A stretch of 22,026 nucleotides of DNA, from NCBI GenBank assembly GCA_943704525.1, contig CALSCQ010001783.1, forward strand, positions 2,703-24,728, given 5' to 3'. Source of the stretch: Pigoraptor vietnamica (taxonomy: Eukaryota; Opisthokonta; Filasterea). Below the pieces are notes generated by a model. It was given only the letters and a program-made list of their open reading frames with translations, was not told the DNA's origin and did not search any database. Made by a program: the position numbers and the translations under genes. Numbering within the stretch: position 1 is the stretch's first letter; every line of letters begins with the position of its first letter. Of the stretch, positions 754 through 20,416 are shown piece by piece.

Positions 754-3700
754 ATGGCTCAAGTGGCTACAGCGCGACACCCGTCGTTGGCGGGGAAAGC
801 GACTCCGGCTGTCAGTGAGGCCGAGCACACTCCCTCTCCAGACCTCTTCTTCCGGCTCTTCGCAGATGCGCTGTCTGGACGCGGCCTCCGACGCGCTGTT
901 TACCAGTTTGTGCTCCTCCCGAACGAACTGTGGACCGTTTCCGTCGGCGATGACGGTCGGGCAACGGCAGCGCACGGACGCATCGAGCATGCGGGTGAGT
1001 GAGCGTCAGCGTGCGTATGTGATGAATGCTCAGAGCTGATTTCCTCCTCTCGCTATTGCGTCAGACTGCACGATCAAGACGACACTGCTGGACATTATCG
1101 AGATTGGCGACAACCGCACAAACGCCATGCGCGCACTGATGAGCAAGCGCATCGTCGTCGACGGCAACCGTGGCCTTCTTGCGCAGCTCGTGCCATACTT
1201 CAAGGACGTGGCGAGGTAAATAGACCGAAACGGACGTGCCCAATCTCACGTCTATATGTATCTGACACATGCCCTTTCGGACCCTCCAGGACGCTTGCGG
1301 CACAAACTGCCGAGGCACAGCGGGAGTCCGACGCTGCATTGGCGCACAGCGACGTCCACCATCATGTCAACGGCGTGCATTCTGTCGCCCACGAGCACGT
1401 GGCGTTTGTGGAGCGGAAGGACTGGCAGCCCGACAACGACGCGCCCTCGTGCGTGCTGTGCAAGTCGCCGTTCACGTTCACGCACCGCCGCCACCACTGT
1501 CGCCTGTGCGGCCGTGTCGTGTGCGCGGACTGCAGCGCGCGCAAGATTGTCGGCCAGCGCGTGTGCGACATGTGCCACGCCAATTCCCTCCTCGAGCACC
1601 ACCGCGCCTCGCTCCCCGCGCACCCTCAAGACCGCGTCGACGACAGCGACCCGCAGGGGCACCATCATCACCGCCGTCATCACTACCACAGCCGGCGTGG
1701 CCTCTCCGTGGGCGGCTTTCCCGATGCGCCAGACAACGGCAGCTCCAACGGCACCGGTAGCCGCCCTCCTGCGCCGGACGCCGCTCATCCTGCGTTGACG
1801 CGCACGATAAGCGGGTCCCAGCAGCCCAACGCGACGCACTCGTCGCCACCGGGGGCCGTCAAGTCGATGCCTCAGCCCTCGCGCTCGCAAGTTAGCGACC
1901 ACCCTCTTGCCTCGCCGGCGTCGTCGGCGGTTGAGGGGCGTCACCTCCATCAGCCGCACGGCAAGTCGGCGTCTTCCGCGTCGCTCGCGCAGGCCGACGC
2001 TGCTGCCCGCACGTCCTCTCGCGCGCAGTCCGTTCGCACCCTTCCCGGCGCCGCTTCACTTGGCGACGTGACGATGGGCCACGCGAGTGACGATCCCATG
2101 CGCGGGCACCTCGTCGCGCACTCGGACGCCCACATTCGCGCCCTTCAATCGGCCCCGATTCCGTCGAGCTTCGATCGCGCGCGTGCAGGGAGCGACAGGC
2201 TTCCGCCCGAGGCGGACGCCTTGCAGAGCGTTGCGTTCGAGTCGGAGGTGGAGGACCTCAAGACGCGCCTCCGCGATCTCCAGCGGCGTCTGCGTGGTCT
2301 GGAGCACGCGCTGCAGGAACGGCCGGGCGCCGTTCGCGCGGTTTTGTCTGCGTTGCTTCTGATGGTTGCCGGCGCCTTCGTCCTTGCGGCTTGCAACGGA
2401 CAGCCCCTGATCGCGTGGGACGCGGCCAGTGCGGCCGTGTCGTTGGCCGTGCGCGCTGCCTTTGTTGCTGGCCAGCGCGCCTCCGAGCGGTGGACGGCGC
2501 TTGCGACGGACCCTTCGCCGATTGCGCTCCCCGGCGGCCTCAGCATCGACGCGCCCGTCCATTCCGTGCGGTTGCCCGCGGCGATACTCGTGACGGCTGC
2601 GGTGACGTTGTTTATCCTGCGGGTCGTTCTGTTGCCGCCCGTGCGCATGTTGTTGCTGTCGGACGAGCGCGAGATGCTCGTGCGCCGCGTGAAGGTGTAC
2701 ACGATTGCGAGCCGCATCATCGCAGGGTACATGCTGCTGAAGTTGTGGACATGGGTGGGCATTCGTCGCGTTGCCTTGTTGCTACTGTGGATAGCAATTC
2801 CCGACTAGCGTGCGTCCCTGTCGTCCTGCACATGTGCGTCGCCCGTGCTGCTCCGCAACTGTAGATTGCAACCCGGACTGCCCTCCCCCTTGCCTACTCG
2901 TGCCTGAGTTCTGAAGCACGGTTTCGCTTGCTATGCTTTGCTTTCCCTTTGATTAACTGTCTGCGCCTTCTTCACGCACAGGGACGCGAGGGACCGGAGA
3001 TTGAGGCTGCGTGGTCCAAGCGACATGCCATATATTCCGTGCGCGTGCGCCGCGCCATCGTCGATCTGAAGGGCTTTTGGGTCAAAGTGGGGCAGTACCT
3101 CAGCTCGCGTCCGGACATTCTCCCGGGCGAGTGGTGAGTGATTCGTCTGCGGTCGATTGCTAGCAGTTCCATATCCCCCTTTGATTGTTTTTTGTTTCTT
3201 GGCCAATGTTGCATCGCCCGAGTCGTTTGTTCCTTGCGGACTTACGAGGCCGTCGTGCTCTCTGTCTCAGTTTTCACCTGCAACAGTGCGTTTGTTGGCT
3301 CTCGTGTGCCTGTTCTCGTGGTTACGCGGACGGCGTGCTGGGCTGCTTCCACTCATGGCTCATGCTATGCAGGGTGAGCGAGCTCAAGACGCTCCAGGAC
3401 GAAATGCCGGCGAGCGGCATGGACCACGTGCGCCGCGTCATCCGCGAAGACTTTTCCAAGGAAGTGGAGGACCTCTTCGCGTCGTTTGACGAGGAGCCGA
3501 TTGCGGCCGCGTCCATCGCGCAGGTGCGTTCCCCTTTATCGGCTGCTGCGCCCTTGTGCCTCTCTGCGGCAGCGCGTTTCATTCCGCGTTGTCCAATGCC
3601 TTTGGGCTTCCAATGTGAATCTAACTGCTCTCGCTCTTCCACTCGTTCCGTTTGGTGTGAACGGCAGGTCCACTGCGCGACCCTTCGCAACGGGGAGCGC

Positions 3701-6700
3701 GTGGTCGTGAAGGTGCAGCACCCCCGGATGGACGTCATCATGAGGCAGGACATGGCCAACCTCGCCGTGATCATGCGCGGCGTCGCGTGGCTCGAGCCAA
3801 AGTTCGACTTCCGCCCCGTCGTCGACGAGTGGTCGAAGGAGGTCCGTTGGTCTCAATTCAGTGTCTCGTGCAACCTGCGGAATACTGTGTGGCGTTCTCC
3901 GATTTTTGTGGACGTGTGCATGTGTACGTTGTCGAGGGGACTTTACATAGTGCGATGGGACACATGACAGGAACTACTAGCTGCATGCACGTGCTCACCG
4001 GCTGTCCTACAAGCGCAGGCTATCAAGGAGCTCGACTTCTTCAACGAGGCGCGGAACATGACGCGCGTGGCGGACAACCTCGAGCGCTCACGCGTGGACT
4101 GCATCATTCCGAAGGTCACCAGCAGCCTCGTCAGCGCGCGCGTGCTCACGATGGAGTATGTGGAGGGGTTCAAGGTGACGGACGTTGGGCGACTCAAGGC
4201 CCTTGGCATCGATCGCGCGGCGCTGCTCTCGCGCATATGCCAGGCGTATGCGAGCCAGGTGTACGTCGACGGCTTCTTCAACGCCGACCCGCATCCTGGG
4301 TGGGTGTTGGTGATGTGTGCAACTTTCAATGTTTGAGTCTGCGTGTGCGTCTGTGTGTATGTGTGTATGTGTGTGTGTGTCTGCATTATGTGTGTTTAAG
4401 TGTGTCGGGGTCTGAGTATGAAACTTTCCGGCGTGAGAGTGGGTGAGAGAGGGCATATCGCTTTCCGCATCTTCTGACGATTCTCTCTCTTTCTCCCTCG
4501 AACACACAGCAACATCCTGGTGTCCATCAAGGACGGCATCGTTCGCCCGGTGCTCCTCGACTTCGGCCTCACCAAAGCCCTTCCGCCGCACTTGAAGCGC
4601 GCGTTTGCGCGGATGGTCCACTCGGCCATGGTGATGGACTCTGGAAATCTCCTGAGGTGCGCGGGTTCGAATCCCGACATTGCCACGCGCATCGCAATTA
4701 CACCCGCCCTCAGTGCACACTTAATGTCTTATAACTTTATTCTGCTCATTTCTTTTGTCACAAATGGCTAATACACTCTGTGCGGTCCTTGTTATTCCCC
4801 CGCGCAGGTCGTTTGAGGATATGGGACTCAAACTCAACCGCACCAATCCGTCCGAGGACATGAATAACATCCGCTTCCTACTGCGCGACACGGCCCCCGC
4901 GGCAGAGGCGCGCTCGCAGTTCCGCGAATACCGCCGCGAGCAGATGCAGAAGCTCGAGCAGCTCCCGCGTTCGCAGCGCAACCCCGTCGACGCGTGGCCC
5001 GGCGAGCTCCTCTTCTTCTTCCGCGTGACGTTCCTTCTCCGCGGGCTGTGCTCTGCACTCGAGACGCGCATCCCGTTCGTCAAGATGATGGGACCGTACG
5101 CCCACCGCGCCCTCCTCGACGCCTTCCCTGCGGAGACGCACGCGCGTGAGCCCATTTACGCGACGCCGTCGCTCTCGTCGACCCACGCGAAGGTTGGTGC
5201 GGATATTATTCTCCTTTATCGCCGCAACTTTACCCTGTCATTGTGCGCTCTCGCTGGTTTGACGCGACACTAAAATCGGCGTCCCGTCTCAGGTCGAGCA
5301 CCTCTTGCGGCGCCTGCACGCGGCGGGGGCGTTCCTCGGCATCCAAGTGGCGGTGTACAAGGACGGCGTGAAGGTCGTCGATGCGGCCGCGGGCGTTATG
5401 GGCCTCGCGGACCCGCGCCCGGTCACCCCTTTGTCGCTCTTCAACGGATTCTCTGTCACCAAGGCGGTCTCGGCGACGGCGGTGGGTTGGGGTTGCTGAT
5501 GGGCTGTCCGGTGTTGGGGTTGTTGACGGGCTGCATTGCGCCCTCTCCCATGTTATGTCGGTGAACTTTTTTTTGTGAATGCGCTGGTCGTGAGCCCCTG
5601 AATGTGCGCGGCGTGCGTATTCCATTTGTCTCACACGAGTCTGACCGCAACCGCGTCCCAATCATTCGGCCAGGTCCACATTCTCGCCGGCCGCGGCCTC
5701 GTCGACTACGACGCGCCCGTCGCATCGTACTGGCCCGCTTTCGCAGCCGAGGGCAAGCGCGACGTCACCGTCCGTCACGTGATGGCGCACACGGCGGGCC
5801 TCGAGTCGGCCGCGCCCGTCCTCACGCCCATCGCCCAGCTCTGCGATTACGAGGGCATGCTGCGCAGGGTTGCTGCCGCCAAGCCGTCGTCTCCTGCGGG
5901 GCAGGCCGGGCGCTACCACTACTACTCGTTCGGCTGGCTCTGCGGCGGCGTGCTGCGCGGGGCGCTCAACGGCCCTTCTGCGGAGGGTCTGCAAGTGGAG
6001 GACGGCACGTCCAAGGGCAAGAAGGCGGAGGGCAAGGCAAACGCCCCGGATGCGGACGCGCCCGTGGTGGACATGGCGGCCTTTGTGCGCGACGAGATTG
6101 CGCGCCCTCTCGGCATCGAGAGCGAGTTTTACCTCGGGTGTGTGCCGGTGTCCGAGTGGGATCGCATCGCGACGCTCGCGAACGGGTTCGGTTCGTCCGG
6201 CGGACCTCCCACCCCCGATGACGTGGCCACCCTCATCCAGGAGATACGGCAGCGTCAGGAGGGCGACGGGGCCGCCGCGGCTCCGCAAGCGGCTGGCGGC
6301 GAGGGCGGCGCGCCGGCGGCCGGGTGGAAGCCCACGGGCAAGAGCGTGGTGTCGGATCTCGAGAAGGCGTTTGGGGCGTCGTCGTCGGGTGCGATCGCGG
6401 ACCCGTGCGTCTACAACGCGCGTGAGCTCAGGGAGGGATGCGTGCCCGCGGCGAACGGGCACTTCTCCGCGCGCGCGCTCGCCCGCTTCTACGACTGCAT
6501 TGCTCGTGGGGGCGTCGTGCCACTGCCATCAGACGGCTCCGGTGCGGCGGGGACTCCCGGCCCATCTCCGCGGCGCCTGTTCCCCGCGGAGCTGCTGTCA
6601 CGGATCAGCAGCCAGCAGTCGGTCGTCTCTCTGCCGTTCCTCGACGAAGGCATGCCATACGGCCTCGGGTTCCGTCTCTACGCGCTGCGTGACACGAACA

Positions 6701-6897
6701 CGGGAGTGATGTGCAGGGAGCGCGCGATAGGCCACTCTGGGCTTGGAGGGTCGATTGCGCTGTGCGACCTCCACTCGCGCGTGTCGGTGGCCGTGACGGT
6801 CAACCGGCTGAGCTTTGTGCGCGACTCTGTGAATGAGATTGTGGGGCTTGTGCTGGAGGACCTCGCGCACGCCGAGATTGCGAGCCTCCTCGCGTGA
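754..6897 (+). CDS. SCP2-FYVE-coiled coil-TM-ABC1 kinase-beta-lactamase-like fusion protein (11 exons, 1,519 aa)
   Basis: Exons: 754-994, 1065-1215, 1290-2754, 2982-3133, 3373-3523, 3668-3841, 4019-4299, 4510-4656, 4808-5192, 5293-5481, 5674-6897. All introns are GT-AG and phases agree throughout (4,560 nt). The start is the first ATG after an in-frame stop at 724. Domains: SCP2-like lipid-binding fold at about 27-127; FYVE finger 176-226 with all eight Cys, the WxxD element and the RRHHCR core; low-complexity linker; coiled coil about 449-474; TM segments about 480-502 and 558-580. The ABC1/ADCK kinase follows, with KxGQ (654-657), the AAAS loop (714-717), Lys735, DPHPGN (868-873) and DFG (889-891). 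The C-terminal class C beta-lactamase-like domain has S1103-x-x-K1106, the Y-S-F box (1196-1198) and H-S-G (1466-1468). ABC1-beta-lactamase fusions are known in plants and protists; the SCP2-FYVE-TM front is the unusual part. Likely on PI3P-bearing endomembranes (inference). Alternative: two genes, 754-2808 and about 2982-6897. Confidence 0.8.
2755..2981 (+). other. Phase-0 intron joining the FYVE half to the ABC1 kinase half; alternative stop if retained
   Basis: The donor GTGGGC lies at 2755. The acceptor CACGCACAG ends at 2981, with a pyrimidine-rich run and a branch-site-like GATTAAC at 2951-2957. Both flanks are in phase 0. The last residues before the donor (RRVKVYTIAS...LLKLWTW, about 596-619) resemble the N-terminal helix that precedes the KxGQ region in ABC1 kinases, so splicing restores a normal kinase N-terminus. 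If the intron is retained, translation stops at TAG 2806-2808. That would give a 636-residue SCP2-FYVE protein ending in a further hydrophobic stretch. I see no in-phase ATG between 2809 and 2981 for a separate kinase gene. Confidence 0.65.
4339..4396 (+). repeat. Imperfect (GT)n tract in intron 7
   Basis: A GT-rich run interrupted by GC, CT and AT dinucleotides lies inside the intron between the DPHPG and NIL codons of the ABC1 kinase. It lengthens that intron to 210 nt. It is one of several GT/CA tracts in this window that lie in introns or gene-free DNA. Confidence 0.7.
4624..4685 (+). other. tRNA-like segment lacking a D-arm, across the exon 8/intron 8 boundary
   Basis: A perfect RNA polymerase III B box (GGTTCGAATCC, 4664-4674) sits eight bases into intron 8. 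It forms a T-arm with stem GCGGG/CCCGA (four of five pairs) and loop TTCGAAT. The next seven bases, CATTGCC (4678-4684), pair at six of seven positions with GGCCATG at 4624-4630. The middle (GATGGACT...GGAAATC) resembles the anticodon arm of a class II tRNA such as Ser. At 62 nt there is no room for a D-arm, and the 5' half is coding sequence of the ABC1 domain. It is therefore not an ordinary tRNA gene; a tRNA-derived remnant or coincidence are both possible. Confidence 0.3.
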
Positions 6898-7210: not shown

Positions 7211-9541
7211 TTAGTGGGCGAGTCCCAGCCTCTTTTCCCGCCGTGGCGCACCGCCGCTCGCGCGCTTCTTCTCGTTGACGCCGCCCCCGCGCAGCGGAAT
7301 GGCGCCGTACTTCTTCCAATGCGCGCGGCACTCGCGGCATAGCACACAGCCCCAATACGACATCATGTGGTAGCTCGCCGCGACCTTGGACCTGCAGTCG
7401 ACGTTCGCGCACCGCATCCTCCGCTTTCCCCCGTGGCTCAAGTCCTCGCTGCTATCGCTCACGGGCTCCACGTCCACGGAGTCGTTCACAAGGTGCGACT
7501 CGACGTTTTGCGCCGTCACGTGCTGTGCGGGAGTGCCGTTGCCCGCCGCCCGCGTACCCCCATCCGCCCCATGGGAGTCGTGCGCCTCAAGCCCTCGTAT
7601 TCGCGGCACAATCGCCGTTTTGCGACCCTCGCGCTTGACGCACTCGCCGTACAGCCTCGATCGCCTCTTCCATATGTAATAGTACCCGACAACGTGCCCA
7701 ATCGATCGGTGAGAGAGCACGCGGCGCTGAATTTTGTCGAGGCGCTTGCCGTACTCCGCCACGCCCGCATCGAACAAAACCCGGCTGCTGTCGTCCCACA
7801 CGTCCACAGTCTCGACATCACGCACGCAGCCCGCGTGCTCGGCGAGGGCTGCGGCCGGATCGTAGCCGTTACTCGTCAGCAGAGAGAGGCTGTGCAGGTG
7901 CGCTCGGTTCCCGTCGCTCACAACGTTCGCGGCGACTGGAAACGACGAGGGCGGGACGCTGTAACCCGTAATCGACGACTGCACGTGCGCGATCCTTTGG
8001 TTCGTCAACACCGTCGCGCGTGCCGCAGAGAGATAGCTGTCTAATTCCTCAGGCGTGAGTGCGCAGCGAGTGGCGCTGAAGAGAAGCTCGCCCTGAACTT
8101 CGCGCGCGCGGCGGAAGGCGTCCGCGTCCCTGTTATGCGCCAACTTCGGTATCACAGCCTGATAGTCTGCTCCGATGCGCATGGCGGCGCCGAGAGGCCG
8201 CGATATGCCGTCGTCCGACGGGTCGGCCCGTGTGAGTGCGGCGGTGAGCGCGGGCCGCTTGAATTCGTAGAAGAACGAGTCCTCGCGCTGGGCGTAATTG
8301 GTGAGCGGCTCGTCGATGTCACCCACGTGGCGAACGCGGCATTTGCCGCGGAGTGCGCCGACGGGATTCACGTCGATAACTTCCGTCTGCACGAGCTCAC
8401 TGCGGGCGTGGAGGAAGTCAGTCTCGGAGTGGCCCGCCCACGGTATTATGGCAGACAAAGCCACGCCGCCACAGAAGACACGTCCACGGCGCGACACAGG
8501 TGTACGAGACAGGCGCCTAGACGCAACGCACATGCGCAGGTGTCAGGGGACTAGAGAAAACGCACATGCACAGACAGGCGCCTAGGCGCAACGCACATGC
8601 GAAAGTGTCAGGGACTAGAGAAAACGCACACGCGCAATAAATAAACAACGCACCGCATCCCCAGCCCCTGCTCCATCCTTGCGACTATGGCTTCGTTCGC
8701 GTCGACCTCGCCGATCCGCATGAACCAATTCACGCCCATCGCGGGCCCTTCGTCCTCCTCTTCTTCATTCGACCCCGAGCCCGAATCCCCCGCGCGCGAC
8801 GCACCCGTCCGCGCCGCACCCGCGCCATTGGTGCCGTCCTTGCTCTTCACCTCGCTTGCGTCGTCATGGTCGTCGGCATCCGGCGGTCCGTTTGGGTAGA
8901 ATTTTGTGATGCGGCCAATGTCGAAGGGGGCGCCGGTCTCTTCCGAGGCAAGATAGACAAAGTCTGCGCGTTGATGGTGCGTGGTGTGAGTGAGAATGAA
9001 AGCGATAGTGCTCAAGTGCACGAGCGAACGATGCATGTGGTTGGTGTGAGTGAGAATGAAAGCGATAGTGCTCAAATGCACGAGCGAACGATGCACGTGT
9101 GTGGTGTGAGTGAGAATGAAAGCGACAGTGCTCAAGTGCACGAGCGAATGATGCACGTGAGGGTTGGCATTGCGGACGATGAAAGCGATAGTGCTCAAAG
9201 CACGCGAGAGAAGGAACACAAAGGGAAAGTGGCGCGTGACAAAAAGGGTGTGGGCACGGCACAAGAGCGCATCGGGCACGCGGTGCGTGTGAACGAACAC
9301 AGGAACGTTGCAGATGCCCCCTTCTCTCCCATCAACAAGCCTACACATTCGCATCAGGCGAGGGCCACTAAAATAAACAAAGCGACGTCGGTACAGACTC
9401 GAGTGGGAGACAAGGGAGTGCGCACATGGCGACGAATGCGAACGCAATACCTCCGACGGAGTACGAGACGCCGTTCACAGAGGCCCTGTCGGCCGTCACG
9501 CGTATGTCGTCGTCGTCTTCGTCAATGCCCCACGCCGCCAT
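7211..9541 (-). CDS. BAH-ELM2-SANT-GATA-finger protein, MTA/RERE-type co-repressor subunit (3 exons, 529 aa)
   Basis: Minus-strand exons: 9541-9451, 8963-8654, 8399-7211 (1,590 nt; phases agree). BAH at about 27-180: YSVGDFVYL, IGRI, W110-F-M-R, GKCRV (152-156) and a final DSFFYEF, interrupted by an acidic Gly/Ser-rich insert (about 60-105). ELM2 starts at M207-RIGADYQA-IP. SANT is about 335-384, from W335 to a YYYIWK helix end. A zinc finger lies at 464-491 with the WKKYG motif after it. In MTA and RERE proteins, ELM2-SANT recruits class I histone deacetylase and BAH binds nucleosomes; a nuclear chromatin role is inferred by homology. The finger spacing is C-x4-C-x18-C-x2-C, two residues wider than the usual first knuckle. 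The exon 3 acceptor (CGCCCGCAG) was chosen because it keeps frame and has a CTGAC branch site and pyrimidine tract. Residues beyond 500 are basic. Confidence 0.85.
8508..8636. repeat. Two-copy 65-bp tandem repeat in intron 2 of the BAH-ELM2 gene
   Basis: The unit beginning GACAGGCGCCTAG occurs at 8508-8572 and again from 8573 to about 8636. The copies differ by a few substitutions and one deletion. Both share the core GCAACGCACATGCG and the end ACTAGAGAAAACGCACA. The array lies wholly within the intron 8400-8653. Confidence 0.8.
8983..9206. repeat. 60-bp minisatellite in intron 1 of the BAH-ELM2 gene
   Basis: Three full copies of a 60-bp unit lie at 8983-9042, 9043-9102 and 9103-9162. A degraded partial copy follows at about 9178-9206. 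The unit starts TGGTGTGAGTGAGAATGAAA and includes AGCGATAGTGCTCAA. Copies differ by only a few bases, so expansion was recent or homogenised. The 60-bp period keeps frames open on both strands, which explains the long spurious open frames across it. Confidence 0.88.
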
Positions 9542-9779
9542 GGCATCACGAAGAAGCGCACGCAACGAAGCACATTCGCTCGCGAGCGCTCACGGCGAAC
9601 ACGCGGTACCTCGCGCCGGAGTGACGTTAATGCCGCAAATCAGATGCGTGAGTGTGGAACAGATTGCTCGAGCCCACAATCGCTGCTGAAAGAGCCGGCG
9701 AGCTGGCGGTATGCGAAGAGAGCAAGAAGAGAACAGCAAAGGGAAAGGGAGGCATCCAGCGCGTGAAGGTGTGCTCGGT

Positions 9780-9902
<123 letters not shown>

Positions 9903-10947: not shown

Positions 10948-12769
10948 TCAACCCTCTCCAGCGCAGTGCCTCCGCATCGCCTCGACCGCAGACACGACGG
11001 CCTCGCGCTGCCAAAAATGGCACAGGTCATAGAAGGGGGCGCCGTTCTTCCACTCCTGCGCCGCCCGCAGACGCCGCGAGTTTTTGACCGCGGCCGCCCA
11101 CTCCCAGAACAGCGCGTTCTTGCGCTGGTACCAAAATCACACCGTGCACATGTGCACGCATGCCTCCAGGTCGTCCTCTGCCGAGAGGGTCGGCGGCCTG
11201 TCGAGCATCGCAGTTTCGAGCCACCGGTCAGACGCGTACTCCCAGTGGGTGCTCCGCATGTCTTCCCCCTCCTTACCCGAGGACGACCAGTCGACGAGCA
11301 CAAACGAGGGCTCCGATTCCACCGCCAGAATGTTCGACGGCGCAATGTCGCCGTGGACCACTCCCCGCCTGTGGACCTCCTTCAGCAGCGCGTACAGCTC
11401 GCGAAAGTGGGAAAACTTTGACAGGCCCGTGGGAAGCCCGACTGGCCGCACGAGGGCCCCCGCCATGTTGTCATAGCGAGAATCCTCCCGCTCCCACCCC
11501 TCGATAATCTCGGGTACGCAAAAGTTGCCCACGCGCAAGCCCTGCAGCAACGCCAGCGCCGTGGCCTCCGGCTCGGGGCCGTAGCGGTACAGCTTGAGCA
11601 CGGCGTCTTTCCCGTCGTCATATGCGATCCTGTACGCGAGGGACGAGTGGCCACGCCCCAGGAACTCGCAGATGCCCTTCATCCTTCGGTCGGCGTGCGC
11701 CGGAATGCTGACATGCGTGAGGCGCTGCTGTCGGTTGCTACGCAGCACGTGGAGAAAGAGGGACGCGGCTTCGTCGCACACGACATCAGTGCCGCTCGAT
11801 GCAGAGAGCCACGGCAGTTGCTTGCCCACACGCAGCCACAGCTGTTCGCCGTAGCCGAGGAGGTACTCGAGGTGGCACACGCGCGTCTCCGTGTAGACGA
11901 GCACGGGCAACACCCCGCTGCACAGCAGAGTCGAAAACGACGCAAGCACAGCCTCCGCATGCCCCCCAATCTGTCCCACAAGCAGCGCGTTACTCCCCAG
12001 CGGCCCAGGGCCGGCGTCGTCGTCCGTGACGAGCTTGACCATCGCACGCGCGTTGGGGTACACCTCGAGGGCCTCCGGGGCGTAGACGATAGCGTCCATG
12101 GAAAACGTGCCGGAGTTCGCCTTCCTCGCGTCCCCGCGGTACTTGAACCTGCCTTCTGCGACCACGTGCTCGTCGGCGAGGAGGACGCACAGCGCGGCGC
12201 GCATGCGGTCCGCACGGTCACCGCCGCCGTCGTCACCCAGTGCGGAGAGTGTCTTCGCGAACGCTTCAAACGCCGCGCGGACGTGCGCATTCAGACTTTC
12301 ACTTGCCGCATCTCCCGTGAGATCCACGCTCCGAACCTTCGACAGCAGCGTCGACCCGCGCTGTTCGTCCTGCACCGCCTCCAGCGTGCCCGCGCCCCGC
12401 AGTGACGAAGACTGCGCCTCCAACCGCGCGCCAATGTCCTCATACATTCTCATCGCGGAAGCAAGGAGTCTGTTACACCTCTTGCGTCCTGGTCGCCGCA
12501 CTCTTGCGCTGTGCGTCGGCGGCCGCAAGGCGTGCCGTGGCACGGTGATCCACTTCCTTCACGAGGTCCGTAATGGTCGCGACTGCGGAGTCGACGCACG
12601 CCAGCACCCTCGCAGCGCGGGAATCTTCTCCCACTTCGTGCAAATGGGCGGCCACTTCCAAGAGCTCGTACATGCTCTGCTGCACGCGCGCCACGCTCTC
12701 CTTACCTGTGGCGTCGGGCAGAGGGGAGGCAGCCGCGGACACGGGCTGCGTGGGCGAACTTGTCTCCAT
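10948..12769 (-). CDS. Crinkler/FunK1-like protein: REase-like domain plus protein kinase, with an in-frame TGA
   Basis: The minus-strand start is ATG at 12769. A helical N-terminal segment (97 residues, 12769-12479) joins the main frame at 12438 through a putative 40-nt GTGTAA...AG intron in phase 0. Without it, two open frames overlap, the second starting at an ATG near 12452. A region at about 150-290 resembles the degenerate restriction-endonuclease-like domain found before kinases in Crinkler/FunK1 proteins. The kinase follows: Lys379 (VLKLYRYG), H459-G-D catalytic loop, D480-W in place of DFG, a YAS motif, and DDLE before the final helices. A TGA at 11139-11137 (codon 531) interrupts the frame, which continues with kinase-like, Trp-rich sequence for 62 codons to TGA at 10950-10948. 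The short product is 530 residues. A disabling mutation, sequence error, read-through or a tiny intron could explain the TGA. Such proteins act as effectors in some lineages; the role here is unknown. Confidence 0.65.
11137..11139 (-). other. In-frame TGA inside the kinase C-lobe
   Basis: The codon after ...HMCTV is TGA, and the same frame then continues with plausible kinase C-lobe sequence for 62 codons. Removing either an 18-nt segment (GTGTGA...CAG) or a 33-nt segment (GTGCAC...CAG) would skip the stop in frame. Both begin with GT and end with AG, but both are shorter than any other intron here. TGA ends the 754-6897 gene normally, so general reassignment of TGA has no support in this window. 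Confidence 0.7.
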
Positions 12770-13103: not shown

Positions 13104-16100
13104 TTAGCAGTCTTCTCCCGCCGCGTACGACGGGTGGGTGAATGTCCGCGGGCGCGCTTCGCCAGCGTCCACTTCGGCTGCGGGAACAAGTGCCGCCTGC
13201 GACTGGCTGCCACGCAGGTCGTTCTTGGGCATGCTCGCAGTGCGCAATTCGTCAGGCCGCGACCCCTTCAGCGCCCTGGAAAGGCGCAGAGAAGGGGAGG
13301 GTGTAAATGTCGGTGTGTCGGGACAGTACACTGCCCGGGGTCCTATACATTTACTGCAAGCAACTTTTGACCGCGCAACACCCACCCACATACAGGCGCG
13401 CCACAAACAGTTCTTTCTCGCCCCATACCACGGACATGCAACCATAGCTACACACTCACCTCTGTCGCCTGTAATACCACACGGCAGCGCTGACGAGTGC
13501 CACGCCGGCGACCGCGCCAATCGCCGCACCCGCAGCAGCGCCGGCATTGCTCGAGCCACCGCTGCCGCCCGAAGGCATGAGCTGTGGCGCGGCATCCTGC
13601 ACGAAACAGCGTCAGCGAATGAGGAAGGACATCCACAACTCAGCGCAGTAGAAGGTCCAAAGAGAAGACGATAATGCGAAATGGCGGGGTGAAGCCGTCT
13701 CCCCCCCCATTTTTCCTGGTTACCCCTGTAAGTAACAGGCGCACGGCCTTGCCTCAGTTGAGCGACGTACCTGCGTGGCGTACGCCTCGCCCGCCTGAAC
13801 GTTGGACGTTGAAACACCCGCCGATGCTGCGATGGTGGGCGCATCCTGTCGCACGGCCGCAAGCACGCTCGCACTGGGGACGACGGGGCCATTCGCACCC
13901 GACGTCGCGTAGAAAATGACGACAATGGCGCCCGTCTCGTCCACCGTGACATCGACCACACTCACGTCGACGGCGTCGTCTGCCGCGCGCGCCCTGACGG
14001 CAAGGGCGTGTGCATCCACGATATCACGACGGCGCGTCGCGTGGGCTTTGAGAGCGTCGAGAATGGCGGCCTTAATCAATGGGAGAATGTTTGCTCGGAA
14101 GCTGTCGAGCGAGAGCCCTGTGCCGGCGAAGCGCAGCTGCACGGCATTCTTTGCGCGGTCGGCGCTGAGAATTGCGGGCGGAGGGCGCTTGGGCGGGATA
14201 GGCGGCGGTGCCACCACCGTTGTGGACGCGGACGATGTCTGCGGACGCGCACTCGATGTCGGGGCCACTGGCGATGACGGCTGCACTTGCGATTGGGTCG
14301 TCTTGCCCGCAGCGGACGAGTCACTTGTTGCAGAAGTGGCCACGGACTGTTGGCGAGAAGCCGTTGTCGTCGTCTGCGACTTGGATGATGAGTCGACGGA
14401 GGGGCGCGCAGCGGTGGACGTCGGGGCCACCGGAGGTGCCGTGCTGGCCACCTTCTGGCTCGACGACAGAACGGACACGTCGATGGGTGCCGACGCCGAG
14501 GATTTCGCAGCGGTCGCGGACGCAACGGCAGAGGATGACGTGGCCAGCACAGACTTCGTGCTGAACGAGGGCTGCGTGGCGGTAAACGACGTCGGGAAAA
14601 CCGAAGATGCCGCGGGCACGCTCGACGAACGAATTGGCGAAGGGTTGGACGAAGAGGGTTGCACGGCGGTGGAGGAGGGCTGCTGGGGTTGCGACGCTAC
14701 TGACGACGCCGCAGAATTGCTCGCGGCGATCGTGCGCGTCGACGACTGGACAGCCTGGGATGATCCCCCGCCGACGGCCGCGCTAGTGCCCACGCTAGTG
14801 GCCGCGCTGGTAGGCACCGGCTGCTGCAGAGTGAAGGCGGTGCAGTTGCCGTCGTTGCCGAGGACCGTGCTGGGCGGGCAGCTGTCCACGCAGATGCCGT
14901 CGAAGCGGCCATACGCGCACGCGGTGCACTGTGCCGGCGATGGGCCCTTGCACGACGTGGGCGTCTTGCAGCTCGGGTGGCAGGAAACGCACGCGCCTCC
15001 CGAATAAAAGCACACGGAGAACGGCTGCGAGAAGGCCGCGTTGCTCGCGTTCGCCGCTGATGCCACGCGAACGACGACGGCGGTGCCCGGCACAGCGGCG
15101 GACAAGAGAGCCCACGTGTACGTGCCCGTGTTCGCGACGCTCGTTGTCGTCACGTTTGCCCACACGCCGTTCGTCCATCGGACGGCGATTGACACGCGTC
15201 CGTAGGGGTCTCCGCCCGTCCAGCGCACCGTCACAGAGCCGTTCTGCGGCGCGACGAGCGTGCAGAGCGGCTCGGTCACGGCCACGGGGTAATCGTCGCA
15301 CGATTGCGTGTTGCACGTGCGCGTCGTCGCCATGTCGGCCGCAGTGCCGGGGCACAGCGAGGGATCGACCGTAGCGCCGGACTTGCTCGAGCGGCACGTG
15401 ACGTTGCGCGTCTGCACACCTCCGCCGCACACGCGAGAGCAGGCCGTCCACGGCGTCGTTTCGTTGAGGAACGTTTCCGGGATGCACGGCTGCGTATTGC
15501 GCCCGTGGGGTCCCTCTTTGGCTCGTACGTGCCGTCGGAGGGGTAGTTGCCGTCGTTGCGCTCGCACACGTCGTCCGTGCACGTCGTGAGCGTCCCGTCG
15601 GGTTTTCCCAGCTGCTGCGCTTGGCAGTAGTACTTGCGATACTGCGTCCCTCCGCCGCACGACTTCGAGCACTGCGTCGACTCGGCTTGGGAAATTGTCC
15701 AGTGCGCGTTCATGCAGGACGTCTGGCACGGGCGAGCCTGCGACGGGGCCGCCACGGGGCTGCCGGGCAGACAGCAGTAGTCGTAGTTGCAGCCGAAAGT
15801 ACCGACGCCGCTGTACACGAACCCGCAAAACTCCTCGTTCCTGTCGACCGACGACGGCAAGCACCGGCACCCGCCGTTCTGCAGGGCGATGGCCTGGTTG
15901 CCGCCGCACGGGTACGAGCCGCACGGGATCACGTTGCACGCAAACTGCTGCGAGGCCTCGGCAGGAATGGGCGCGTTTGCGGCGACGCAGAGAGAGGCGT
16001 CGACGGCGCCCACGAGGCTGGACATGCACTGAAGCGCGCGCGAGCGAGTGCCTCCTCCGCATATCTTCGTGCACGGCGTCCAGTCGCCGAGCGCGTACGA

Positions 16101-18479
16101 ATAGTTTGCCTTGAGCGTTCCGTCGACGGAAAAGGAGTCCGACACGGCAAAGTTCGACGGGTCCGACGACGACGAGACGACCACGGAAACGGTGCCCGCG
16201 TTCGGGAAACCCTGGGGGACGATCCACCCGAACGCGCCGTTGTTGCCGAACCCCTTCGCGGGGATGCCGAGACCCTGCAGCCACGCGCCAGTGCTGCCCA
16301 ATCTGTACGCGATGCCGACCATGCCACCGGTCGCGCCGCCCGTCCACCGAATGGGAATCGTCTCGCCCGTGAGATACGCCTTCGCACGCGACAGGGTCGA
16401 CGAGAAAGCGATGCGAGGCTCCGGCGGGACGCACGACGTGGCGACGGTCCCGACGCACGCGACACTGGACGATTGGCACGCAGAGTTGCACCACGAGCAC
16501 CCGGGCTGCGCAAGGCAGGCGCCGCATGCTTGCAGGGACGGACAGTTCGACGCCGGCGCTGTGGTCGCGGGCTCCGTCGAACCGCTGTTGACGGGAAGCT
16601 GGCTCAGAACGCTCGTCGTCGCCGTCGTCGAAGTCGTCGTTCCGGGCTTGGAAGGCGCGCCGGCGGTTGTTGCCGGCGCGACTGCGGTCGTTGACTTTGG
16701 GGGCGCAAAGAGGCAGCCATTCGACCACTTTGTCGAGTCGATCAGGTTGAACGTCTTTGTCGCGGGGAGCCCCATGTCCTTGCCAACTATGGTAAACGCG
16801 CCGACGTTGCCTATATAGGGAAGGTCGATGCCCGGGAAGCGGATCTCGCCAAGTGTCGCCGCAAAGTCGAGGCCGTACGTCCACAGGTACGCAATCTGCG
16901 TGCTCGTCGAGCACTTCGTCAGGTCACCCGCGGCGAGGTCCAGTTGCAGCCACGGCAAGAGCTCCAGCTTGATGGGAACAATCGCCTCGATGTTGACGTC
17001 GACTGTCGGGACGAGCGTGACGCGCAGGGACGCGTGGCCCTCGGCGTGGAATTTGAACGGCTGCTGCTGGAAGCCCGTCCCGCCGACCCTCCGAATGTAC
17101 TGCAGCGCGGCATTGCGCGACGGAATGGTGCAACCGATGGAGACGGAGCGGTCGTACGAGAAGCCCCACGAGGCCAGCGCGATGGCGTCTGCGGATGCCT
17201 TCGCGCGAACAAAGAACGACGCCGACGACGATATGACGATGGGAAGGGGACCGAGCGCGAAGGAAATGGTGGGCAGCGAGTACGACGAGCCAATCTGCCG
17301 CACCCACTCGCGGTCGAACTTGTAGCTCGCTTCGGCGCTGAGTTCGGCGCGGAACGTGAGCGAACCCTCGACGAGAAACTGGAATCGCTCGATCCACACG
17401 GCACCGCCCTCACACCCAAACAGGCACCAGAGTATCTGCGTGCGCACGAGCAGCTGGAAGGAGACGGCGACGGTGCCTCGCGCGTAGCACGTCGTGCAGC
17501 GGACAACCGCGTCGTACGTCCCAAAGTCCAGTCGCCCGAACCACAGCGATTGCAGGTCGATGCCGCCGCCGACGTGCAAGATCTCCACGTCCTTCTGCGC
17601 CGCAGTGCCCGTCGCCGTGTCGTAGTTGAAATTGAAGAGCTCCCACGAATTTGACTTGTCGATGTTGATGTCGCGCCGCTTGCGGAAGATGCGCTGCGCG
17701 TGGTCGCTCTCGAGCAGTCCGTCGGTCGTCGCGGGGACGGTGCGCCTGGCGTGATTGAGGCTTCCGGGCGTAATCGTCACGTGAATGTCCGAGTCGCCGA
17801 GGCAACCGAGCACCGACGTCACCTCCGCCCACAGCGAAACGCGACGCGCGGGAAGACCGCGCTCGGAGGGCTTGTTCTCGTCATGTGCGCCGTCGGGGTG
17901 AGGAGCAGCCGCGATGACCTTGAGGTACATGGCCGTGTTGCCGTCGGCCTGTGAGCGGAGGCAGCGCCACGCGGGATCAATCGCAATAATCGGGCGCAAT
18001 CCTTCCCGTCGCACGTGCTCGCCGTCGGCAAAAAAGTCCTTTCCGTTCGACTGTGGCGATTCGGAGGGGGTGCCCAGCGACCTCGCGAAGGCGGCCGCAT
18101 TGTGTGCGACGTCAAACGTGACATCAAGGCGAACGACGGACGCTGTTTCGCCGCGCGCGGACGTGGGCACGCACTGCACGTCAATCACACCGCGAAAGCG
18201 GGACAGATCGACCACGTGCTTGTAAACGCGGCCGAGGAATCGGACGGTCGAAATCGAGCCGTCGTCGCCGTATTCTTCCACCGTGTGATTATAGAACCAA
18301 AACGCGCCTTCGTCGCGAAGAGGAGTCGCGAGGGGATGCGTGCCGAGGCCGCTCAACGGCGTGAGATCGGCGTCTGATTGCAGTGACGCAGGCAGTCCCA
18401 CGCACGGTTGGAAAGCGCTGCACACCAACAAGAGGGCTGTCACGAGGACAGCGACCAACGCCGCACTCGCACGCGGCAT
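13104..18479 (-). CDS. Secreted type I membrane protein with PSI, Kre9-like, TSP1, Cys-rich and SEA-like modules (3 exons, about 1,672 aa; one frame break)
   Basis: Minus-strand exons: 18479-13771, 13596-13460, 13275-13104. MPRAS at 18479 was chosen because a signal peptide follows at once (hydrophobic core 6-21, end near 24-29). Order: unassigned beta-rich ectodomain (about 30-600); Thr/Ser linker; PSI-like Cys cluster from C646; Kre9-type Ig-like domain (about 690-785); TSP1 repeats with Trp at 800, 927 and 1011 and CxxxCGGG cores; second Kre9-like domain (about 1065-1155); furin-like Cys-rich segment; Ser/Thr-rich stalk (about 1216-1420); Pro stretch; SEA-like domain (about 1435-1560); TM 1589-1612; basic 60-residue tail. 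This suggests a cell-surface adhesion or matrix-binding protein. The frame shifts by one base near 15518, between the second and third TSP1 repeats. Adding one base makes exon 1 a multiple of three and restores phase 0 at the donor, so an assembly indel is likeliest. Confidence 0.85.
15508..15524 (-). other. Apparent one-base frame break in the TSP1 receptor gene
   Basis: Upstream codons read ...NYPSDGTYEPK in one frame. Downstream codons read EGPHGRNTQPC followed by a perfect TSP1 repeat in another. The switch needs one additional base near the GGGACCCC/CCAAAGAGGG homopolymer runs. No GT-AG interval here fixes the frame, and the site does not fit a standard minus-one slippery heptamer. Both sides remain open for thousands of bases, which argues against a long-dead pseudogene. 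Confidence 0.75.
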
Positions 18480-19389
18480 CTTCACGTCTACGTCTGCATG
18501 TGACACGCGCACAGACAGCGCCTTGCAAGTGGGAGGCAATGTGTGCGCGTCCCTTCGCTTCTTCAGCAAAATGGTCCACCGGGCAGCGGACGCCCTGACT
18601 CACAAGGTACGCAGGAAACATGGCAAATCAGCCACGGATCCTCATGGCTGGCCGAATGGGTCGCTAAGTATGCACGAGGAGCGCGAGTTACGCCCACATG
18701 TCGACAACACGAATTCGTGTGACCGTGCGCCGGTGCGGGCCATTTCGTACCGATGTGGACCCCTCTCACACCTGGCCGTCCTGCAGGTTGAAAATCAGCG
18801 CTTGTGGCCTCATCGCCACCGGTCGAGTCTCAGGTCGCTAGTCGCGCTAGCTCCGAACGAATGCTCGAGGGGCCGCGGCCGGCGGTCCGGCGGCCCGGCG
18901 CGGCCGGCCGAGGTCAATTGCCCGGCCGCCGGCGGGGCGCACGGCCATCTCAGTCAGTCTCCGTCTCACCGGACGAACCGTGCCGGCTTCCACAGCACGC
19001 CCAAAACCGTCCTGCTTTATGGTGTGTAATGGGATCTAGTCGTGTCAATTGTGTTCTGTGTGTGTGTGTGTGTTTGTGTGTGGTGTGGGTATTGCAAGAA
19101 CGTGCGTACGTGCGGTCAATTGCCGGCCGTCCCTAAGACATGGCCGTAAAACAGAGACAATGAAGTGGTTAAGAGTTCTAATGTCATTCGGTCACTTCAG
19201 ATCGCAACCGTTTCCCCGCATTTTCCGTGTCGTCCTCGTCCGCCATTTCGTTAGATCTTCGCTTGAGCCTCTCTTGACCCTGCGCCGACAACGCGCCCTT
19301 TGTGTGCGGAACATTGTCGCCCTCCGCAACGACGGCCACGTTGGCCCCTGCTTCATTCAATGGCTGCGCGGTGTTGCAGGCAGTGTCAG
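18480..19389. promoter_or_regulatory. Intergenic region upstream of the TSP1 receptor gene with a GC-only tract
   Basis: This 910-bp gap lies between two minus-strand genes and contains no gene I can support. The proximal part should be the promoter and 5' UTR of the receptor gene. At about 18867-18913 there is a run made almost only of G and C, rich in nested GGCCGG/CCGGCC palindromes. A GT-rich run lies at about 19054-19086. The motif GGTCAATTG recurs (18912-18920; related GGTCAATTGCC near 19113). The distal part holds the 3' flank of the E2 gene. Confidence 0.45.
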
Positions 19390-20416
19390 TCAGTCTGCCT
19401 GGTGTAACAACGAGGAGTGCCCGCGACAGTGTGTCTGCTGTGTAACAGCGAAGAGTGGCCGAGACAGTCTGCCTGGAGCAACAACGTCATCGCGGCGTGC
19501 TAAAGTCAGTCGACAGCACATGTAGAGAACGGTCAGCACACGCACCGCGCGTCTCCCGTTGACGGTCAGGGCCATTGCGTGTGTGCGGGAGTGTCTCCTC
19601 GCACACTCGTCAAACGCCGCTCTGTTGTACTTGTACTGGCTCGACTGCAATGCCGAGGGAACACAATTACAATTACAAAAGTGTCCTTCAGTGGAACAAG
19701 GGCTGTTCTCAGAGACGCCTGCGTGTGCCAATGCAAGGCGCATGTGTACCCACAATGTCCGCCATGAGACCATCGTCCGGATTTGCTTCCGAGAGAAGCA
19801 GCTGAAGGGACGTAAGCACACTCGCGACGTTGTGGGAGGGGTTCCAGGCGCCCTTCGTGACGGAATGAATGAGACGAACGAGATTTGTGCGCTTGGAGTG
19901 CGTGCAGGACAGACGCGCGCATACCTTCGGCGGCATCTTGAGGATGTCGTGGCAGATGCGGCCCTCTCCGTCGATGTTCGGGTGGTAGATGGGAGTGACA
20001 AATCGCGCACGTGGCGCTTCAAAGGGGTATCTGTTACATTGCGGAGTCAGAGTCACTCAGCGCAAGGAATGCGACACGGCCCAACAAACCGAACACGAGG
20101 AGAGGTAAGACGATAAACGGGTCTCACCTTTCGGAAAGCTCAATGTCCACGCGAAAGACACCGCCCTCGTAGGGCGATCCCACCGGCCCTTGGATTGCTG
20201 CGAAACGGCGCACCATGTAACAATAAGCGCCAGTGTTCGTCCCACAGCGCAGTCGATATAGTCTTGCTCGCACACATGAAGATCTCACTGCCTCTGGAGA
20301 TACCCACACGCCTCAAAAAAGTCGATGCGGTCGTCCTTTTGCCAGCAACAGATGCCCTCTGGCATGGCGGCGGAGAGCTGCGCAAGCTCGCGCTTCATCC
20401 TAGCCGCACGCTGCAT
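19390..20416 (-). CDS. UBE2T: Ubiquitin-conjugating enzyme E2, UBE2T-like (5 exons, 212 aa)
   Basis: Minus-strand exons: 20416-20308, 20197-20128, 20030-19925, 19852-19754, 19644-19390 (639 nt; phases agree). The ATG at 20416 gives [11 protein letters not shown], matching the UBE2T N-terminus (MQRASRLKREL), so it was preferred to the in-frame ATG at 20398. The UBC fold shows SPYEGGVF, R60-YPFEAP, HPN (76-78), catalytic C86 in RICHDIL, K91, W98 and SEANPDD, then [16 protein letters not shown] across the last junction. Cys86 and Lys91 sit at the same residue numbers as in human UBE2T, the E2 that works with FANCL to monoubiquitinate FANCD2 in interstrand-crosslink repair. Differences are His87 after the catalytic Cys (Leu in human) and Asn99 (Arg in human). 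The last 60 or so residues are unlike the family and lie over a degenerate repeat, so the true C-terminus is uncertain. Confidence 0.88.
19391..19486. repeat. Degenerate tandem repeat, about 37-bp period, under the E2 C-terminal tail
   Basis: Units beginning CAGTCTGCCTGG or CAGTGTGTCTGC start at 19391, 19427 and 19465. They share TGTAACA(A/G)CGA(G/A)GAGTG(C/G)CCG(C/A)GA; the third copy is cut short after AACAACG. The array overlaps the predicted end of the UBE2T-like frame and supplies its stop codon at 19392-19390. Confidence 0.7.

Follow-up and report, generated by a model that had tools for sequence, protein, structure and literature searches.

Positions 754–6897 of the window, i.e., the whole 22,026-nucleotide (nt) stretch of Pigoraptor vietnamica contig CALSCQ010001783.1 analyzed here, contain a single gene for a fusion protein with SCP2, FYVE, ABC1, and Beta-lactamase domains. 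Its eleven exons join into one frame of 4,560 nt that encodes 1,519 amino acids (aa) and has its only stop at the end; GT-AG ends were observed in all ten introns, and each of the four Pfam matches exceeds its curated cut-off. This is the sole PF00144 locus found in the 32.5-Mb genome. A preliminary description, made from the sequence alone, had proposed this phase-consistent gene model, as well as complete FYVE cysteines, the core ABC1 kinase motifs, and a coiled coil followed by a membrane hairpin, and all of these features were recovered.

The N-terminal and the kinase halves meet at the joint of residues 619 and 620, across intron 3 and within a juxta-kinase block. We rejected the very improbable reading that two adjacent genes, one for an SCP2-FYVE-hairpin protein ending at 2808 and the other for a kinase-hydrolase, have been misjoined here, despite the fact that retention of intron 3 would lead to an in-frame stop at 2806–2808 and a 636-residue protein. 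Firstly, BLAST alignments of the pre-kinase part cross the joint in six of ten homologues (numbered here with a P), i.e., P0003 (E 8e-7), P0006 (2e-5), P0002 (2e-4), and, weakly, P0001, P0008, and P0007 (0.006–0.012); the P0004 match ends at residue 619, and P0009, P0010, and P0011 yielded no match over the joint. Secondly, a hidden Markov model (HMM) of 11 homologues, built without the query, favors the joined protein (1333.0 bits) over the separate pieces (151.2 + 1170.7 bits). Thirdly, there is no in-frame methionine from the last in-frame stop up to exon 4, and the first one from exon 4 onward lies 61 residues in, beyond the KxGQ motif. A separate in-frame kinase start within 2809–2981, which the preliminary description had named as an observation that would speak against the fusion, is therefore not there; an unseen upstream exon might still supply one. 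Finally, the whole chain is encoded by other database records, and we take the names of P0002, P0004, and P0008 (comp...seq, open reading frames (ORFs) in assembled components) to indicate single transcripts.

The splice junctions were assessed with an HMM likewise built from 11 homologues without the query, by scoring all open GT/GC-AG alternatives within 45 nt. For nine of the ten introns, the proposed junction ranks first; for intron 3 it takes third place among 25, 1.7 bits under the best alternative and effectively tied with it, so that the edges of this intron are uncertain by a few residues. Since every scored alternative was designed to keep exons 3 and 4 joined, this comparison tests the edges and not the fusion. 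The fusion architecture is secure, and the mechanism discussed below is what we infer from it.

The SCP2 match (PF02036, residues 48–126) has an E-value of 1.3e-8 and a score of 35.5 bits (cut-off 21.3), and it covers profile positions 22–100 of 101. In the FYVE module, all eight cysteines are present (185, 188, 201, 204, 209, 212, 223, 226), together with the signatures of phosphatidylinositol 3-phosphate (PI3P) binding, WQPD (WxxD), RRHHCR, and RVC. Among sequences of known structure, it matches EEA1 and ZFYVE16 (1joc, 3t7l; E about 1e-13), which share these zinc and PI3P signature residues in a different protein context. The heptad and hydrophobic segments were identified by our own simple scores (Kyte-Doolittle hydropathy and a crude heptad score). 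The ABC1 match (PF03109, residues 677–919; E 6.9e-70, 235.4 bits, cut-off 22.9) retains KVGQ, the Ala-rich loop AAASIAQVH, VVVK, ELDF (ExD), DPHPGN, and DFG, and this part of the protein matches the atypical kinases COQ8A and UbiB (4ped, 5i35, 7cy2), whose fold is shared by the predicted model of one relative, P0012. None of these three entries is known to have a fused hydrolase, FYVE, or SCP2.

The Beta-lactamase match extends in two stretches from residue 1051 on (E 5.4e-48). Two of the three boxes named in the preliminary description, SxxK (S1103-VT-K1106) and H1466-S-G, were confirmed. The third, Y-S-F, has to be replaced: its tyrosine is conserved in one of 31 aligned cores, compared with all 31 for Y1193 of Y-H-Y, and the predicted catalytic tyrosine is Y1193, not that of Y-S-F. 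The hydrolase is family VIII carboxylesterase-like, in agreement with the esterase-like function suggested earlier. Subfamily VIII.3 is defined, in PMC9795927, by S-x-x-K, Y-x-x, and H-x-x and by the absence of G-x-S-x-G. The query has all three motifs, and its two G-x-S-x-G strings (1223, 1285) are outside the conserved motifs; in the last 500 residues, 12 of 13 long-form relatives have no such string and P0006 has one. The predicted P0012 model has the family VIII esterase fold, the VIA-align rows for it covering the hydrolase part only. The family VIII enzymes of known structure (5gmx, 7y3z, 5gkv) are, unlike the query, stand-alone bacterial proteins of approximately 370–400 residues without a kinase fusion.

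Homologues show that this domain combination, for which the preliminary description had suggested a search, is not private to Pigoraptor. Among the best 120 of 191 matches listed in the homologue search, six proteins carry all four Pfam domains: P0001 from Capsaspora owczarzaki, P0002, P0003, P0004, P0010, and P0011. Two more, P0006 and P0008, have FYVE, ABC1, and Beta-lactamase, and most of the other listed homologues have ABC1 and Beta-lactamase only, the named ones being from land plants, the alga Tribonema, and the diatom Corethron (the one named relative behind our label "diatom-like"). Presumably, "Nk52" stands for Chromosphaera, "Clim" for Corallochytrium, m. and comp ORFs for choanoflagellate transcriptomes, and lgn for Logan. 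No animal or fungal names occur among the listed 120 of 191; many entries are nameless, and the search words limit this inference. A search with the N-terminal half of P0003 returned itself and three bird FYVE and coiled-coil proteins and missed P0001; since even P0001 was missed, word searches are unsuited to a half so diverged, and the result does not imply that animals or fungi lack the long form. A profile search with 12 long forms listed P0124, P0125, and P0126 but no further complete long form among the 120 listed of 142; P0126, added by this search, is truncated and has FYVE, ABC1, and an SCP2 match below threshold. Viral contigs gave 45 pattern matches, none of which was confirmed.

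Several relatives have exchanged or added modules. P0092 carries PX at residues 178–236 (35.6 bits, cut-off 21.6) in place of FYVE. A START domain is situated between the two hydrolase halves of P0002, P0004, P0007, P0008, and P0086 (the last also with a PDZ domain); four of these proteins have a START-bearing interval of 354–366 residues and P0086 has one of 691, and the interval is flanked by the same motifs as the 69-residue linker of the query. PI3P-type residues are kept in 10 of 11 FYVE modules. In N-termini below the SCP2 cut-off of Pfam, SCP2-like local HMM scores exceed those of all 200 shuffles in P0126 (43.0), P0012 (32.4), P0009 (24.3), P0008 (20.9), and P0006 (16.4, two stretches); P0092 scored 2.4 bits, below its best shuffle (6.9), and P0007 and P0005 had no match. 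As a separate observation, four SCP2 matches of approximately 80 bits each lie on one strand within 1.8 kb of G000 contig C82 (57829–59641, loci L009–L012), possibly forming a multi-SCP2 protein.

In the preliminary description, this architecture was not known to have been described. We found no description of the SCP2-FYVE long form in the open-licence literature searched, which is not proof of absence; in contrast, the ABC1-hydrolase core has been in print since 2006, and the Capsaspora record is public. PMC1560137 reports the order ABC1-S12 in one Arabidopsis and one rice protein (At5g24810, LOC_Os06g48770), thus bearing out the statement that ABC1-beta-lactamase fusions are known. Like the query, these have ABC1 N-terminal to a serine beta-lactamase-like domain in one chain; unlike it, the listed plant members show no SCP2 or FYVE in their precomputed Pfam domains. 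The named plant members are about 40% identical to the query across 53% of its length. P0001 of Capsaspora shares with the query the module order SCP2-FYVE-hairpin-ABC1-hydrolase and, across 55% of the query's length, 52% identity; the linker sequences differ, and the database name of P0001, "ABC1 family protein", mentions ABC1 only. The PX exchange, the START insertions, and the tree-based age of the long form are new here.

To address the age of the family, the ABC1 regions of 33 eukaryote-type proteins were placed in an IQ-TREE phylogeny in which 10 bacterial ABC1 sequences served as the root. Plant forms branch first, and the remaining clade has a support of 94; within it, P0126 splits first (75), P0092 groups with short algal forms (91), Tribonema joins P0010 and P0011 (100), and support for a group of holozoan-like forms is weak (32). 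Since FYVE-bearing long forms occur on several branches of this tree, the long form looks old, and the topology, with its uneven support, suggests that it was later trimmed or altered. A midpoint-rooted FastTree phylogeny joins all long forms at a support of 0.261 and differs in the placement of P0092, which groups there with Tribonema and P0010/P0011. Transfer or repeated fusion may account for the distribution instead of one ancient long form. A bacterial origin of the fusion found no support: a hydrolase homologue (flank of at most 3 kb, E 1e-3) was found in none of 80 bacterial ABC1 loci, out of at least 592, with the ABC1 query matching all 80.

We tentatively predict, with slightly less than half of our confidence, that the protein belongs to an old, membrane-anchored eukaryotic family that combines a cytosol-facing UbiB-type ATPase with a lipid esterase on PI3P membranes. 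SCP2, joined by START in some relatives, would take up a hydrophobic lipid. FYVE, or PX in one relative, and the membrane hairpin would anchor the protein to endosomal or autophagic membranes rich in PI3P, on their cytosolic side. At the expense of ATP, the UbiB-type ABC1 domain would extract or present the lipid, and the C-terminal family VIII-type serine hydrolase would cut one of the lipid's ester bonds. The FYVE/PX and START modules are conserved, swapped, or added among relatives, as would be expected of a lipid machine that works on phosphoinositide membranes. As to the one-chain lipid machine on endosomal membranes of the preliminary description, the single chain with its lipid-capture, PI3P-type, UbiB-type, and esterase-like modules stands; the endosomal location, the substrate, and the cooperation between modules are inferred.

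Several observations weigh against this prediction. P0009 has a degenerate FYVE without PI3P signatures and P0012 has no Pfam FYVE match, which means that not all members would bind PI3P. At the threshold used, no hydrophobic segment was detected in P0092 and a single one in each of P0012, P0005, and P0126, and the P0012 model has low confidence over the hairpin; two or more segments were found in one of seven short forms (P0019). Plant and algal short forms lack a Pfam match for the N-terminal modules, so the ABC1-hydrolase core works without them, and the Arabidopsis and rice proteins are predicted to be mitochondrial (PMC1560137).

Part of this evidence would fit a tethered multifunctional protein whose modules act separately, with no hand-over of lipid between domains: plants and diatom-like algae retain nothing but the core, and FYVE or SCP2 is sometimes degenerate or missing. 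We regard this as an unlikely alternative that deserves attention, given that order and linkage are held across deeply diverged sequences and that, in five relatives, the hydrolase encloses START. Also unlikely, and slightly more so, is a mitochondrial UbiB protein of coenzyme Q metabolism that would use FYVE, SCP2, and the hairpin for inner-membrane lipid handling and not for endosomal targeting. It agrees with the inner-membrane location of the UbiB relatives Coq8, Cqd1, and Cqd2 (PMC8346625), with the plant prediction above, and with the N-terminus of the query, which is free of acidic residues up to residue 21 and may thus hold a weak presequence. On the other hand, all 11 long forms checked have 2–7 acidic residues in their first 30 (both counts are of composition only, with no targeting predictor), PI3P-type residues persist in most FYVE modules, and PX and START occur in relatives. 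A role of the hydrolase as peptidase, acyltransferase, or LACTB-type scaffold, in place of lipid esterase, seems improbable, even though LACTB and the acyltransferase LovD are among its listed matches.

The short forms P0124 and P0078 have an N-terminal hydrophobic stretch and no acidic residues in their first 30. This is perhaps a signal or plastid-targeting sequence, and the location may thus differ between lineages.

A broader proposal, possible but more tentative than the lipid-esterase prediction itself, is that these proteins represent an endosomal UbiB branch, an ATP-driven, PI3P-directed lipid esterase with SCP2, a phosphoinositide module, and a hairpin that would predate the split of opisthokonts and stramenopile-like lineages. 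Later on, this esterase would have exchanged FYVE for PX, gained START, or, in diatom-like and possibly plant forms, been stripped of modules, and it may have been lost in animals and fungi. The physical linkage of ABC1 to lipid-capture, phosphoinositide, and ester-cleaving modules suggests both a membrane location and a reaction type. Capsaspora is culturable and hence offers a host for testing the function of the family. In the literature consulted, eukaryotic UbiB/ABC1 proteins are placed in mitochondria or plastids; if the proposal is true, they would work outside these organelles too.

Features of the fusion gene, in window coordinates
Feature	Position	Strand	Basis
Exon 1: N-terminus and SCP2 start	754..994	+	phase, GT donor; junction rank 1/11
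Exon 2: remaining SCP2	1065..1215	+	exon alone matches PF02036, E 2.4e-4
SCP2 domain, residues 48-126	895-1201	+	Pfam
Exon 3: FYVE, low-complexity linker, heptad stretch, membrane hairpin, start of juxta-kinase block	1290..2754	+	frame, Pfam, hydropathy
FYVE zinc finger, residues 176-228	1423..1581	+	Pfam E 1.8e-15; 8 Cys and signatures
Heptad (coiled-coil-like) stretch, residues 447-474	2236..2319	+	crude heptad score 1.54
Hairpin hydrophobic segment 1, residues 476-506	2323..2415	+	Kyte-Doolittle 2.55
Hairpin hydrophobic segment 2, residues 554-589	2557..2664	+	Kyte-Doolittle 2.57
Intron 3, N-half to kinase half	2755..2981	+	edges 2770-2990 equal in score; BLAST across joint
Exon 4: KxGQ as KVGQ at 3084-3095	2982..3133	+	frame, motif
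Exon 5: start of Pfam ABC1 match, Ala-rich loop	3373..3523	+	Pfam, motif
Exon 6: VVVK ATP-binding lysine motif at 3701-3712	3668..3841	+	frame, motif
Exon 7: ELDF at 4028-4039, DPHPGN start	4019..4299	+	frame, motif
Exon 8: DPHPGN end, DFG at 4559-4567	4510..4656	+	frame, motif
Exon 9: post-kinase region	4808..5192	+	frame; junctions rank 1
Exon 10: hydrolase start, S1103-V-T-K1106 at 5452-5463	5293..5481	+	Pfam, motif
Exon 11: rest of hydrolase, Y1193-H-Y at 5914-5922, H1466-S-G at 6733-6741, stop	5674..6897	+	motifs
Low-complexity linker within hydrolase, residues 1284-1352	6187..6393	+	START between same flanking motifs in five homologues

The remainder of the window contains further frames on the minus strand. 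The frame at 7211–8542, which matches ELM2 (26.7 bits) and, below threshold, BAH, possibly encodes a chromatin protein. A 473-aa open frame at 11137–12558 weakly resembles APH or a kinase (24.5 bits, cut-off 23.2). At 13720–18599, thrombospondin type 1 domains occur in two long frames that overlap and that may be parts of a single gene, separated by a splice or a change of frame. A partial ubiquitin-conjugating enzyme (71.6 bits) lies at 19709–20056. An Rfam scan of the window gave no match above gathering scores. Repeats include an 88-base A run at 1–88, a 60-base minisatellite of 3.6 copies at 8982–9198, and a GT microsatellite of 61.5 copies at 9778–9901.
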